The translations under genes were made by a program, and so were the position numbers. 64,000 nt of DNA from Tabrizicola piscis. Lineage in GTDB: Bacteria; Pseudomonadota; Alphaproteobacteria; Rhodobacterales; Rhodobacteraceae. The notes under the pieces were generated by a model. That model saw only the letters and a list, made by a program, of their open reading frames with translations. It ran no database searches and was not told where the DNA came from. The DNA lies in assembly GCF_003940805.1 (NCBI RefSeq), contig NZ_CP034328.1:1532001-1596000 (forward strand), written 5' to 3'. Of this stretch, positions 21,073 through 25,196 are shown piece after piece. How positions within the stretch are numbered: the stretch's first letter is position 1; each line of letters starts with the position of its first letter.

Positions 21073-22314
21073 ATGACACTCCGTGAAAGAACCGAAATCG
21101 CCGTGATCGGCGCAGGCGTGGTGGGGCTGACCATTGCGCTGGAGCTGGCCGATGCCGGGCGCGACGTCGTGCTGGTTGATCCCGGTCAGCCCGGAATGGG
21201 CGCAAGCTACGGCAATGCGGGCACCATCGCGGGCTATGCGGTCAACCCGGTCGGGACGCCTGCCGTCTTGCGGTCGCTGCCGTCGCTCATGTTCAGCCGG
21301 ACCTCGCCACTGGCCATCCGCCATACGGCCTTGCCCAGCCTGATGCCATGGTTGCTGCGCTTTCTGTGGCAGTCACTGCCGGCGCAGGCGGAGCGGAACG
21401 CGCGGGCGATTGCGGCGCTGGTGTCCGGCGCGGGCGAGCGTTGGGATGACCTGGCCCTGCGGGTGGCGGGGGCAGGCATCCTGCAACGCCGGGGCTGCCT
21501 TTATCTTTACGAAACGCCCCAAGCCTTTGCCGCCGCCGAGGCCGAGATGGCCCCGCGCCGCGCGCTTGGGGTGCCGGTCGAGCTGATCGGTCCGGACAAG
21601 CTGGCGGAGATGGAGCCTGGGCTGCCAAAGGGCATGGGCGGGGCGGCCCATTTCACGGGCGCGACCTTTCTGGACGATCCGGGCCGGATGATGGGGCTGA
21701 TCGCAGCGGCAGCCTTGACCAAGGCGCGGCATCTGCAGGCACGGGCCGACACCATCACCCGCGGGCTGGATGGCGTGGTGGTTGAAGGGCCGGGGCTGCA
21801 CCTGCATGCGCGCAAGGTCATCATCGCGGCTGGCGCACAGTCCCGCGCGCTTGCAGCACAGGTCGGTGATCGGATCCCGCTGGATACCGAACGTGGCTAC
21901 CATGTCGAATGGGACATGGCTGAACCCCTGCTCAGCCGTCCCACCTGCCCCACCGCGCGCGGGTTCTACTTTTGCCCGATGGCGGGCCGCTTGCGGGTGG
22001 CAGGCACGGTCGAACTGGGCGGGTTGCGCCTGCCGCCGTCACCCCATCGGGTGCGCAAACTGGTTGAAGGGGCGCGGGCGTTCTTTCCGGAACTCGGCAC
22101 GCCTGACCGCGACTGGATGGGATTTCGGCCAAGCCTGCCCGACAGCCTGCCTGTGATCGGGCCATCGTCGGCTGGGCCCGAGGTGATTCACGCCTTTGGC
22201 CACGGGCATCTGGGGGTGACTCTGGCTCCGATCACCGCGCGAATCGTCGCGGACCTTCTGGCCGGTCGCCAGCCACCCATCAACCTTGCGCCCTATCTGC
22301 CAGGACGGTTCTGA
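21073..22314 (+). CDS. FAD-dependent oxidoreductase (DadA/glycine-oxidase-like)
   Basis: 413 residues of the DAO superfamily. The N-terminal IAVIGAGVVGLTIALELA is the FAD-binding Rossmann motif; GASYGNAG follows at about 40-47 as in DadA-type D-amino-acid dehydrogenases, and the C-terminal FGHGHLGVTLAP closes the FAD site. It is 48 bases downstream of the alcohol dehydrogenase and the last gene of the cluster. It might oxidise an amine or amino acid released at the end of the pathway. A terminator-like hairpin follows. Confidence 0.88.
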   Translation: MTLRERTEIAVIGAGVVGLTIALELADAGRDVVLVDPGQPGMGASYGNAGTIAGYAVNPVGTPAVLRSLPSLMFSRTSPLAIRHTALPSLMPWLLRFLWQSLPAQAERNARAIAALVSGAGERWDDLALRVAGAGILQRRGCLYLYETPQAFAAAEAEMAPRRALGVPVELIGPDKLAEMEPGLPKGMGGAAHFTGATFLDDPGRMMGLIAAAALTKARHLQARADTITRGLDGVVVEGPGLHLHARKVIIAAGAQSRALAAQVGDRIPLDTERGYHVEWDMAEPLLSRPTCPTARGFYFCPMAGRLRVAGTVELGGLRLPPSPHRVRKLVEGARAFFPELGTPDRDWMGFRPSLPDSLPVIGPSSAGPEVIHAFGHGHLGVTLAPITARIVADLLAGRQPPINLAPYLPGRF

Positions 22315-22320
22315 AACCAG

Positions 22321-22355
22321 ACGGCCCGAACATGCGTCATGCACGTTCGGGCCGT
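22321..22355. terminator. Bidirectional terminator hairpin
   Basis: ACGGCCCGAAC (22321-22331) pairs perfectly with GTTCGGGCCGT (22345-22355), with an inner TGC/GCA pair. It lies between the FAD oxidoreductase end and the end of the convergent small-protein gene, so it can end both transcripts. T-runs are weak on both sides. Confidence 0.65.
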
Positions 22356-22382: not shown

Positions 22383-22619
22383 TCAGGATTCGGCTTCGAT
22401 GATGATGACGTCGCGACGCTCATCATCGCTGCCGCCGCACAGCGCGACGCAGAGAATGACCGGGATCAGCAGCAGCGGCAGGATGCCGATCGACGACGCG
22501 GGCTTTTCTGCCACGACTTCCATCTCTTCTTCGACAATCACCGGGCCGCCAGCAAAGGCAGTCGATGCGGACACGGTCAGCAGCGCAGCGACAACAACCG
22601 GAACGAGGAGTTTGTTCAT
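22383..22619 (-). CDS. Small signal-peptide/one-helix protein, paralogue 1 of 4
   Basis: 78 residues. Signal peptide of about 23 residues ends STAFA, then GGPVIVEEEMEVVAEKPASS, a short hydrophobic segment GILPLLLIPVILCVALC, and a charged tail GGSDDERRDVIIIEAES. The mature part is nearly the same in three more genes up to 23882. I do not recognise a function. The predicted form is an acidic periplasmic strand of about 20 residues anchored by one helix that ends in two cysteines (LCVALC). Start: ATG of MNKLL, with GGACC upstream. Confidence 0.82.
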   Translation of the reverse strand: MNKLLVPVVVAALLTVSASTAFAGGPVIVEEEMEVVAEKPASSIGILPLLLIPVILCVALCGGSDDERRDVIIIEAES

Positions 22620-22707
22620 TTCTTGGGTCCTTCCATTCAAATGCAACAGGGTAAGCCGACATCCCGGCCTTGCAGGTGGGCCGGATCGGCCGTGACGGCC
22701 TTGGGGA

Positions 22708-22926
22708 TTATGTGATGATCCGTGGCCGGTCGTCGTCATCGCCACCGCAGAGCGCGACGCACAGGATGATCGGGATCAGCAGAAGCGGCAGGATTCCGAC
22801 CGATGACGCAGGCTTTTCAACCACAACCTCAACGTCCTCCTCGATCACGACAGGGCCACCAGCATGGGCGGTGGTCGCCGAAATCAGGACGGCCGAGGCG
22901 AGGGCACTTGCAATGATCGCTTTCAT
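22708..22926 (-). CDS. Small signal-peptide/one-helix protein, paralogue 2 of 4
   Basis: 72 residues. Signal peptide MKAIIASALASAVLISA...AHA, then GGPVVIEEDVEVVVEKPASS, helix GILPLLLIPIILCVALC and tail GGDDDDRPRIIT. TTTTGGAG is 6 bases before the chosen ATG; the ATG two codons earlier would have no spacer, so it is not the start. This copy is the most diverged (Val for Met/Ala in the acidic strand), yet keeps the EKPASS and LCVALCGG blocks. It lies 88 bases upstream of paralogue 1 on the same strand. Confidence 0.82.
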   Translation of the reverse strand: MKAIIASALASAVLISATTAHAGGPVVIEEDVEVVVEKPASSVGILPLLLIPIILCVALCGGDDDDRPRIIT

Positions 22927-23226
22927 GCGCATCTCCAAAAGGCAGTGTTGGCGGGACCGTAGTCCCATGATCTACAAGGGAAAGCTAGACGCATTGCCCG
23001 CGCGGCTCAAAGCATTTCGGGCCGCGCGGCGCTGGCAACCGAAAACTGTGGCATATTCACATAGGACAGAATGAACGACCTCCGGTGCCGACCGCGACCA
23101 CCGGCGTATCGCAATTGTTCTGCGCCGATCGCACGAAACGACCGCGCGCGCAGGTGGGGTGGAGCAAGACTGGACCCTGACCGAGGCAAGCACTGCCCCG
23201 GCCAGAATCAGCCAGAGGTCAGAGCG

Positions 23227-23463
23227 TTATTGGTCTTTCGGCGGGGGCTCGGGGATGCGCCGTTCCTCGTCATCGTCACCACCGCACAGCACGACGCACA
23301 GAACAACGGGAATCAGCAGAAGCGGCAGGACGCCGATGGACGAGGCAGGCTTTTCAGCCACGACTTCCATTTCGTCTTCGACAATCACAGGACCACCGGC
23401 GTAGGCGGTACTGGCAACCAGAACAAGTGCGCTGGCAGTGGCAGATGCAAGCAGGTTTTTCAT
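23227..23463 (-). CDS. Small signal-peptide/one-helix protein, paralogue 3 of 4
   Basis: 78 residues. Signal peptide MKNLLASATASALVLVASTAYA, then GGPVIVEDEMEVVAEKPASS, helix GVLPLLLIPVVLCVVLC and tail GGDDDEERRIPEPPPKDQ, which is more acidic and Pro-rich than in the others. GGAG stands 7 bases before the ATG used; the ATG four codons upstream contains that GGAG and is not chosen. Intergenic space to paralogue 2 is 300 bases and includes a CCGCGCGGC/GCCGCGCGG hairpin at 22998-23029. Confidence 0.82.
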   Translation of the reverse strand: MKNLLASATASALVLVASTAYAGGPVIVEDEMEVVAEKPASSIGVLPLLLIPVVLCVVLCGGDDDEERRIPEPPPKDQ

Positions 23464-23599
23464 TTTTTTCTCCATTCAGGGCCGGAGTGATGGCATCGAC
23501 CATCCGCTCCGTCCGAACAGGTCTATTCAAATTATTCCAGTCTCGCAATCAATGCTGTGCCCTATTTGAAGGGCCATTTCGCGCGGCTGCCGGACCGGC

Positions 23600-23637
23600 C
23601 AAAAATGAAAAACGGACCGGTCTTTCGACCGGTCCGT
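23600..23637 (-). terminator. Rho-independent terminator after paralogue 4
   Basis: ACGGACCGGTC (23612-23622) pairs with GACCGGTCCGT (23627-23637) around TTTC. On the minus strand the 11-bp stem is followed by TTTTCATTTTT, a good T-run. It ends the transcript of the gene at 23670-23882, so that gene is separated from paralogue 3. Confidence 0.85.
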
Positions 23638-23669
23638 CTTCTAACCAAGGCAGATAAGTCTGTGACTTA

Positions 23670-23882
23670 TTAGCCAGCGGTCGAGCGACGCTCGTCGTCG
23701 CTGCCGCCGCAGAGCGCGACGCACAGGATGACCGGGATCAGCAGGAGCGGCAGGATGCCGACGGACGAAGCGGGCTTCTCAGCCACAACTTCCATTTCTT
23801 CTTCGACGACAACGGGGCCACCGGCCGTTGCAGCCTGGGCACCGAGGGTCAGGGCCATGACCGAGACAATGAGTTTTTTCAT
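23670..23882 (-). CDS. Small signal-peptide/one-helix protein, paralogue 4 of 4
   Basis: 70 residues. Signal peptide MKKLIVSVMALTLGAQAATA, then GGPVVVEEEMEVVAEKPASS, helix GILPLLLIPVILCVALC and tail GGSDDERRSTAG. It is closest to paralogue 1 in the mature part (both have GGSDDERR). CGGAGCTTAAC before the ATG supplies the ribosome binding site. It has its own terminator, so it is a separate transcription unit, and its promoter should lie in 23883-24037. Confidence 0.82.
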   Translation of the reverse strand: MKKLIVSVMALTLGAQAATAGGPVVVEEEMEVVAEKPASSVGILPLLLIPVILCVALCGGSDDERRSTAG

Positions 23883-24037: not shown

Positions 24038-25024
24038 TCAGAACTGTCCGGGCACCACTTGATCCGGCGGACGGTGACCATCTGCGAAGGTCTTGATGTT
24101 GATAATCACCTTTTCACCCATCTCGATTCGCCCTTCGATTGTGGCGGATCCCATGTGCGGCAGGCAGACAACATTCGGCAGTTCGCGCAATCTGGGGTTG
24201 AGGTCGGTGCCCCGCTCATAGACATCAAGACCTGCGCCCGCGAGTTCGCCTGCCCGCAGGGCGCGAGTCAGGGCGTTTTCGTCCACCACCTCGCCCCGGC
24301 TGGTATTGACCACGACAGCGCTGGGTTTCATCAGCCGCAACCGCCGCGCGTTGAGCAGGTGGAACGTGGCAGGGGTGTGCGGGCAGTTGATCGAAAGGAT
24401 GTCCATCCGGGCGATCATCTGGTCCAGGCTTTCCCAATAGGTCGCCTCGTGCTCTGCCTCGATCTCGGGGCGCAGGCGCTTGCGGTTGTGATAATGGACC
24501 TGAAGGCCAAAGGCGCGGGCGCGGCGGGCCACGGCCTGACCAATCCGCCCCATGCCAAGGATGCCCAGACGCCGCCCCCCCAACCGCCCGCCCAAAAGCG
24601 CCATCGGCGACCAACCCGCCCATGTGCCGGACTGCATCACCTGCAGGCCTTCGGGAATGCGGCGGGTGACGGCAAGGATCAGCGCCAGCACCATGTCGGC
24701 GGTGTCTTCGGTAACCACGCCGGGTGTGTTGGACACGATCACTCCGCGCTGGCGGGCGGTGGCCACGTCGATATGGTCAACCCCGGCGCCGTAGTTGGCG
24801 ATCAGCTTCAGCTTGTCCCCGGCCTGTGCCAACAGGGCCGCGTCGATGGTATCGGTGATCGTCGGCACCAGAACATCGGCGCGGCGCATCGCTGAAGCCA
24901 GATCATCGCGCGACATCGGGGTGTCCGGGTCGCGCAGTTCGACGTCGAACAGTTCTTTCATCCGCGTCTCAACCGCTTCGGGCAGGCGTCGCGTCACGAC
25001 CACAGTCAGGCGGGGGGCAGGCAT
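24038..25024 (-). CDS. D-2-hydroxyacid dehydrogenase (glyoxylate-reductase-like)
   Basis: 328 residues. NAD(P)-binding motif GILGMGRIGQAVA, catalytic Arg in NTSRGEVVDE, Glu in YERGTDLNP and His in LPHMGSAT. The LIANYGAGVDHIDV segment before the Rossmann domain is typical of glyoxylate/hydroxypyruvate and related reductases. It is a second, distinct 2-hydroxyacid dehydrogenase in this window, of the GyaR type rather than the GhrA type at 14925-15839. The start ATG (MPAPRLTVV) gives the family's N-terminus; it is divergent from the SH3-domain gene. Confidence 0.9.
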   Translation of the reverse strand: MPAPRLTVVVTRRLPEAVETRMKELFDVELRDPDTPMSRDDLASAMRRADVLVPTITDTIDAALLAQAGDKLKLIANYGAGVDHIDVATARQRGVIVSNTPGVVTEDTADMVLALILAVTRRIPEGLQVMQSGTWAGWSPMALLGGRLGGRRLGILGMGRIGQAVARRARAFGLQVHYHNRKRLRPEIEAEHEATYWESLDQMIARMDILSINCPHTPATFHLLNARRLRLMKPSAVVVNTSRGEVVDENALTRALRAGELAGAGLDVYERGTDLNPRLRELPNVVCLPHMGSATIEGRIEMGEKVIINIKTFADGHRPPDQVVPGQF

Positions 25025-25196
25025 GTTGATCTCTCCGACAGGGCCAGATCGGGGACTCTTCCCGATCGGGCACTTCCAAATCCGGCGTCCTTGGGGCAAG
25101 GTGGAGCCAAGCGGGGCGATGTACAAGCCCCGGATGCGACAGAAGCAGGACCGGGCGTGGCAAAGGCCCCGGATCGGACAGACAAGGCAAGGGCAG

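Follow-up and report, generated by a model that had tools for sequence, protein, structure and literature searches.

Four tandem genes in Tabrizicola piscis encode tiny exported one-helix proteins of a family that may tether membrane to cell wall

The window, a stretch of 64,000 nucleotides from the 4.39 Mb genome of Tabrizicola piscis, contains an array of four tandem genes on the minus strand, all of them open frames (22383-23882). The array and its immediate surroundings comprise the following features:

21073..22314, plus strand: gene of an FAD-dependent oxidoreductase (DAO; PF01266, E 1.9e-63), convergent with the array.
22383..22619, minus strand: copy 1, open frame and family member; precursor 78 aa long, predicted mature form (55 aa) starting GGPVIV (coding positions 22386-22550; cleavage site read by eye at the AFA/GG junction).
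22708..22926, minus strand: copy 2, open frame and family member; precursor 72 aa long, predicted mature form (50 aa) starting GGPVVI (coding positions 22711-22860).
23227..23463, minus strand: copy 3, open frame and family member; precursor 78 aa long, predicted mature form (56 aa) starting GGPVIV (coding positions 23230-23397).
23608..23641, minus strand: terminator-like hairpin 3' of copy 4, with a 15-pair stem, a 4-base loop and a T-rich tail.
23670..23882, minus strand: copy 4, open frame; precursor 70 aa long, predicted mature form (50 aa) starting GGPVVV (coding positions 23673-23822).
24038..25030, minus strand: 2-hydroxyacid dehydrogenase gene (PF02826, E 2.9e-57; PF00389), the constant upstream neighbour of the arrays of relatives.

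The array is thus flanked by the 2-hydroxyacid dehydrogenase gene on one side and by a cluster of DAO, Fe-alcohol dehydrogenase and aldehyde dehydrogenase genes on the other. The terminator predicted earlier behind copy 4 is present, its stem running from 23641 to 23608 on the minus strand before the T-rich tail. A scan returned two overlapping terminator-like sites, against 1.4 expected in shuffled sequences, and no sigma-70-like promoters, against 0.5 expected. An inverted repeat with 15-nt arms at 22321-22355, between the convergent DAO gene and copy 1, is possibly a shared terminator lacking a T run.

All four products have the same architecture. A signal peptide ending in AxA is followed by GGPV, the predicted mature start, then by an acidic stretch and EKPASS; next come the hydrophobic segment (I/V)G(I/V)LPLLLIP..LCV.LC, a GG pair and a variable charged tail. 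The mature proteins measure 50-56 aa and possess one hydrophobic segment each. At the DNA level, a 168-nt direct repeat is common to all copies, with 71-81% identity to the first one. The original prediction of exported one-helix proteins with an invariant core, encoded by four tandem genes for 70-78 residues, is hereby borne out, as is its statement that they have no assigned function: Pfam gave only matches under the cut-off, and NCBIfam, including its C-terminal sorting models (PEP-CTERM and similar), returned no family for the four array proteins at E ≤ 1. Two such Pfam matches, PhaC_N in copy 4 (E 0.11) and Phage_OMP in a fifth copy described below (E 0.0089), are taken as chance resemblances of signal peptides.

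For the 40-residue core (AGGPV...LCG), the six pairs of array copies gave pS of 0.44-0.50, pN of 0.023-0.140 and dN/dS of 0.04-0.21. With 44-50% of synonymous sites differing, such low ratios, far from the Ka/Ks near 1 expected of unmaintained frames, mean that the frames are maintained and that the core in T. piscis is held by purifying selection on old copies. Of the two causes proposed earlier for its invariance, selection or gene conversion, the first one stands, and the synonymous divergence speaks against recent conversion in T. piscis. The paralogues of two relatives (L045, L056) are closer to each other (pS 0.09-0.29), which is compatible with recent duplication or conversion there. 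Copy 4, the first copy after the 2-hydroxyacid dehydrogenase gene, is the counterpart of the first copies of other arrays: these are its nearest neighbours in the tree, and it differs from the first copies in five other genomes by pS of 0.22-0.37, compared with 0.44-0.45 from its own array neighbours. The first-copy slot, at least, therefore predates these genera. Divergence is greater for copies 2 and 3 (pS 0.38-0.69 versus other arrays).

Homologues exist well outside T. piscis: 420 proteins at E ≤ 0.01 among 420 candidates, and a narrow profile matching, at the same threshold, in 164 of 295 genomes of the same family. The relatives occupy three recurring slots, namely (a) the array, (b) a position adjoining yjbF/yjbH and (c) a position downstream of a YkuD L,D-transpeptidase gene. 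Among 54 named loci, 10 have both array flanks and contain three (four loci), four (five loci) or six copies (one locus); 18 lie in yjbF context, with one copy in fifteen, two in one and three in two; the remaining 26 are other or incomplete. A larger tally of 102 loci is redundant, some places being counted twice (for example L061/L091 and L055/L093). The slots are reflected in the tree, where the nearest neighbour from another locus belongs to the same slot for 99 of 103 array copies, 42 of 44 yjb-linked copies and all 16 transpeptidase-linked ones, the alignment being short and single branches weak. The tree was built from a set of 181 sequences, from which identical sequences and loci L001-L004 and L006 had been left out and which contains a few doubtful rows (one L060 domain with E 7e+02, one L059 domain with E 4e-4); after restriction to lengths of 55-100 aa, 178 remained.

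Several loci depart from the common pattern. In L109 (G121:C58, 9002-10586), five near-identical tandem copies are of the transpeptidase-linked type, so that array formation is not limited to the type in the window. A low-coverage MAG carries an array copy with a frameshift-like loss of the LCVALCGG end (L044:3833-4129, plus strand), which looks like sequencing error or decay. In two further loci, L028:1276-1827 (minus strand) and L075:10797-11543 (plus strand), the small exported module is fused to Peptidase_S74, the chaperone of endosialidase (E 1.3e-7 and 2.5e-5, both over the Pfam cut-off).

The most widely kept feature, common to the three slots, is Gly-Gly directly after the signal peptide. 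With cleavage predicted by a home-made rule and by eye, AGG at the signal-peptide end was found in 102 of 103 array copies (and also in the remaining one, which has a shortened start), 42 of 44 yjb-linked copies, 16 of 16 transpeptidase-linked copies and 9 of 15 others, counts that are favoured by collection of the family with AGG-containing profiles; AGGP occurs in 101 array copies and 27 yjb-linked ones. Of 88 other secreted ORFs, recognized by the home-made rule, a single one has AGG, although this background set had a score threshold and the family set none.

The array is not the sole family locus in T. piscis. A dispersed copy lies elsewhere:

C1:2174130-2174336: fifth copy, convergent with tamB, after yjbH-yjbF (PF06082, E 3.9e-175, for yjbH; PF11102, E 3.4e-25, for yjbF).

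The yjbF and yjbH genes belong to polysaccharide export of GfcB/GfcD type, and the association recurs. In the 51 genomes present in both the narrow-family and the PF11102 match lists (150 matches listed each), a small gene lies less than 1 kb from yjbF in 14 (chance about 0.03) and at 1-20 kb in 5 more, among the matches listed. Fuscovulum blasticum (L064) and Rhodobacter sp. Har01 (L041) even contain three tandem copies at yjbHF. A further 40 yjbF loci were taken from the matches listed, mostly without a near narrow-family match; a small exported one-helix ORF lies within 700 bp downstream in 24 of them, against a background of 32 among 436 other gene ends (for L128, which is one of the 24, an antisense ORF overlying the evident one was selected by the rule). 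These adjoining genes outside the narrow family have AGG in 4 of 24 cases, and in a profile-profile comparison hhalign matched the narrow family with 21 yjbF-adjacent ORFs (probability 93%, E 2.8e-7). In L105, yjbHF and the small gene adjoin the DAO/Fe-alcohol dehydrogenase/aldehyde dehydrogenase cluster, and in L104 and L108 they adjoin its last two genes, which suggests how the array could have reached its present place.

These observations bring to mind YjbE/GfcA of E. coli (yjbEFGH, gfcABCD), likewise tiny and exported, with one hydrophobic segment and a gene beside yjbF/gfcB; a passage of PMC3853201 reports that an EPEC gfcA deletion is without capsule and that plasmid-borne gfcA restores it. 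The small proteins could then be the Rhodobacterales counterpart of YjbE/GfcA, accessory to YjbF/YjbH export, and the array an expanded and relocated set. We regard this, the main rival reading, as rather unlikely, for several reasons. Firstly, outright identity had to be rejected, since the YjbE model (PF11106) passes its cut-off in none of the 295 family genomes but does so in the E. coli control. Secondly, profile comparisons beyond the signal peptide give a mixed picture. The yjbF-adjacent profile at E ≤ 0.0012 finds 128 of 154 narrow-family ORFs, 30 adjacent ORFs and E. coli YjbE, and of 6164 ORFs no further one, but this apparent specificity is weakened by two controls: the mature part alone finds 18 family, 27 adjacent and 1 other ORF at E ≤ 0.01, and in the whole T. 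piscis genome a window copy (E 0.109) scores no better than other matches (0.041, 0.043). Upon removal of signal peptides, E for YjbE itself goes from 0.0012 to 5.2, and hhalign aligned only the signal peptide of YjbE and of GfcA. Thirdly, the fifth copy and the yjb-linked relatives share the neighbourhood of yjbF/gfcB, whereas the four window genes and other arrays lie away from it; PF11102 has no match in 128 of 295 family genomes, some of which (e.g. G010, G021) carry members of the small family. The window proteins also differ from YjbE/GfcA in gene order, in the lack of a Ser/Thr-rich tail and in their Gly-Gly start, the E. coli proteins being without AGG. Unlike in E. coli gfcABCD, the C-terminal domain of GfcC/YjbG (PF06251) has no match in T. 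piscis despite the presence of yjbF and yjbH.

The third slot leads towards the cell wall. Profile A3, made for the subfamily with a shorter tail from nine rows that all come from the transpeptidase slot, matches in 126 of 149 genomes at E ≤ 0.001 and also detects other types, the window array included. At the best 30 A3 loci, a YkuD gene is present in 28, on the same strand in 28 of 28, with 94-154 bp between enzyme stop and small-gene start in 25 and about 270 bp in 3; hemH lies on the opposite strand, convergent, in 25 of the best 30. Because the A3 rows all derive from one slot, 28 of 30 represents one gene order conserved across genera and not 30 independent links. A gene with CAP domain occurs at 31 of 35 loci (the best 30, four named genomes and T. 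piscis).

We compared array-bearing genomes with others for the small gene of this slot. In the four other genomes searched (L041 not among them), namely Luteovulum azotoformans, Fuscovulum blasticum and two Pseudogemmobacter, it is present with YkuD and hemH in 4 of 4 (E 1e-27 to 1e-30). No strong match was obtained in 9 of 9 array-bearing relatives (best E 1.6e-9), four of the nine or their relatives being drafts or MAGs. In T. piscis the CAP gene and its L,D-transpeptidase neighbour are retained near hemH, and another L,D-transpeptidase gene lies past CAP; the slot's small gene is missing, there being no family match, and its place is occupied by another frame:

C1:2181733-2183385 (L090:17734-19386), plus strand: 551-aa ORF between hemH and the L,D-transpeptidase gene, where relatives have the small gene; no Pfam match at E ≤ 0.001.

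The T. piscis genome has 12 YkuD (PF03734) matches in total, and no L,D-transpeptidase gene was seen adjoining the array itself. The hemH gene presumably corresponds to RSP_1197 of Rhodobacter sphaeroides. The order of CAP and L,D-transpeptidase genes resembles RSP_1199, RSP_1200 (DalA) and RSP_1201 of that species, so by gene order the slot enzyme is probably RSP_1199, and we infer a small gene between hemH and RSP_1199 in R. sphaeroides too. A search of open PMC literature found no paper on RSP_1198.

According to parts of two papers, the division lipoprotein DalA co-precipitates with RSP_1199 (PMC10470522), and both RSP_1199 and RSP_1200 appear among the CenR targets (PMC9275681). Together with the adjoining transpeptidase and CAP genes, this would fit membrane-bound regulators or scaffolds of peptidoglycan enzymes, acting in the DalA/RSP_1199 division complex and not attached to the wall themselves. 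Such a role leaves the strict Gly-Gly unexplained and the arrays are located elsewhere, and we consider it improbable.

The original prediction held two cysteines at the helix end to be conserved in all copies. This is true of the array, where 100 of 103 copies have at least two cysteines after residue 35, and does not extend to the other slots (24 of 44 yjb-linked and 0 of 16 transpeptidase-linked copies). That disulphides, metal or haem binding by this pair would be the main function is very hard to believe, as the pair is absent from all 16 copies that stand beside hemH and from 20 of 44 yjb-linked ones, and the adjoining hemH is on the opposite strand. Of the roles formerly proposed, haem has no support beyond a convergent hemH at one of three slots, and the envelope role gains from neighbours in other genomes, which point to peptidoglycan L,D-transpeptidation and YjbF/YjbH polysaccharide export.

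As the best explanation we propose, tentatively and with somewhat less than even confidence, that these proteins are wall mini-tethers, joined to peptidoglycan at their N-terminus by L,D-transpeptidases and with the helix in a membrane. The Gly-Gly start, the enzyme neighbour of the related subfamily and a precedent in Coxiella lead us to prefer a wall tether to a purely polysaccharide-export role, a preference that we hold with the same reserve. In detail, the model is as follows. Signal peptidase cleavage at the predicted site would release exported membrane proteins some 50 residues long and beginning with Gly-Gly-Pro, whose N-terminal glycine a YkuD L,D-transpeptidase would then join to meso-diaminopimelate of peptidoglycan. 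The acidic, probably flexible stretch of about 20 residues would span part of the periplasm, and the hydrophobic segment of about 16 residues would hold a membrane; the simplest case is the inner membrane, the tail then lying in the cytoplasm. Wall and membrane would thereby be linked covalently, a role like that of Braun's lipoprotein but with the opposite end of the protein attached. In T. piscis, the versions found are the array and the yjb-linked copy, and an L,D-transpeptidase encoded elsewhere would act on the array products.

There are precedents for such chemistry. In Coxiella, a part of PMC11841132 describes BbpA as peptidoglycan-bound through a muropeptide-GGPDYVPAPS linkage made by LDT2, and a passage of PMC12729407 has Gly-Gly N-termini attached by Ldt2. 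BbpA and BbpB begin with Gly-Gly, as the window proteins are predicted to do (BbpA even with Gly-Gly-Pro), and L,D-transpeptidases are present in both systems; however, the Coxiella proteins are outer-membrane beta-barrels compared with about 50 aa and one hydrophobic helix here, and attachment, published for BbpA, is putative here. The Gly-Gly tethers known to the same part of PMC12729407 are outer-membrane barrels of gammaproteobacteria, and Hyphomicrobiales use Ala-Asp. Braun's lipoprotein (Lpp) and OutB of Dickeya, as presented in portions of PMC12729407 and PMC12274547, likewise link wall and membrane covalently by means of L,D-transpeptidases, the role proposed here. Unlike Lpp, the window proteins have no lipobox and no C-terminal Lys motif, and their linkage would be N-terminal. 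A table in PMC10470522 counts a Tri-Lys-Arg product of R. sphaeroides as an outer-membrane-wall link; this may represent another, C-terminal tether. Against the tether speak the scarcity of AGG in the small yjbF neighbours outside the narrow family, the lack of an L,D-transpeptidase gene seen beside the array, and the convergent hemH, which is equally conserved in slot c without obvious functional meaning.

The tether and polysaccharide roles can be combined, since a helix bound to the wall could keep YjbF/YjbH in position as well. Taken to its full extent, our proposal becomes a speculation that we think doubtful in its entirety: a Rhodobacterales-wide family of about 40-60 residues would provide minimal covalent tethers between peptidoglycan and the (inner) membrane, their N-terminal Gly-Gly joined by the L,D-transpeptidase of the DalA/RSP_1199 locus and each having one short helix. 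Tandem duplication would tune the number and tails of the tethers, one branch would fix the YjbF/YjbH exporter to the wall, and GfcA/YjbE would be a distant relative without Gly-Gly.

By title or abstract, no paper on this family in Rhodobacterales was found in the open PMC literature (subscription papers lie outside this search). Two questions meet here: a section of PMC10470522 leaves open whether R. sphaeroides possesses covalent links between outer membrane and wall of the Brucella kind, and a passage of PMC11494523 describes GfcA as 'entirely uncharacterized'. With branches at the DalA-associated L,D-transpeptidase and at YjbF/YjbH, the family of tiny proteins is a concrete candidate for both.
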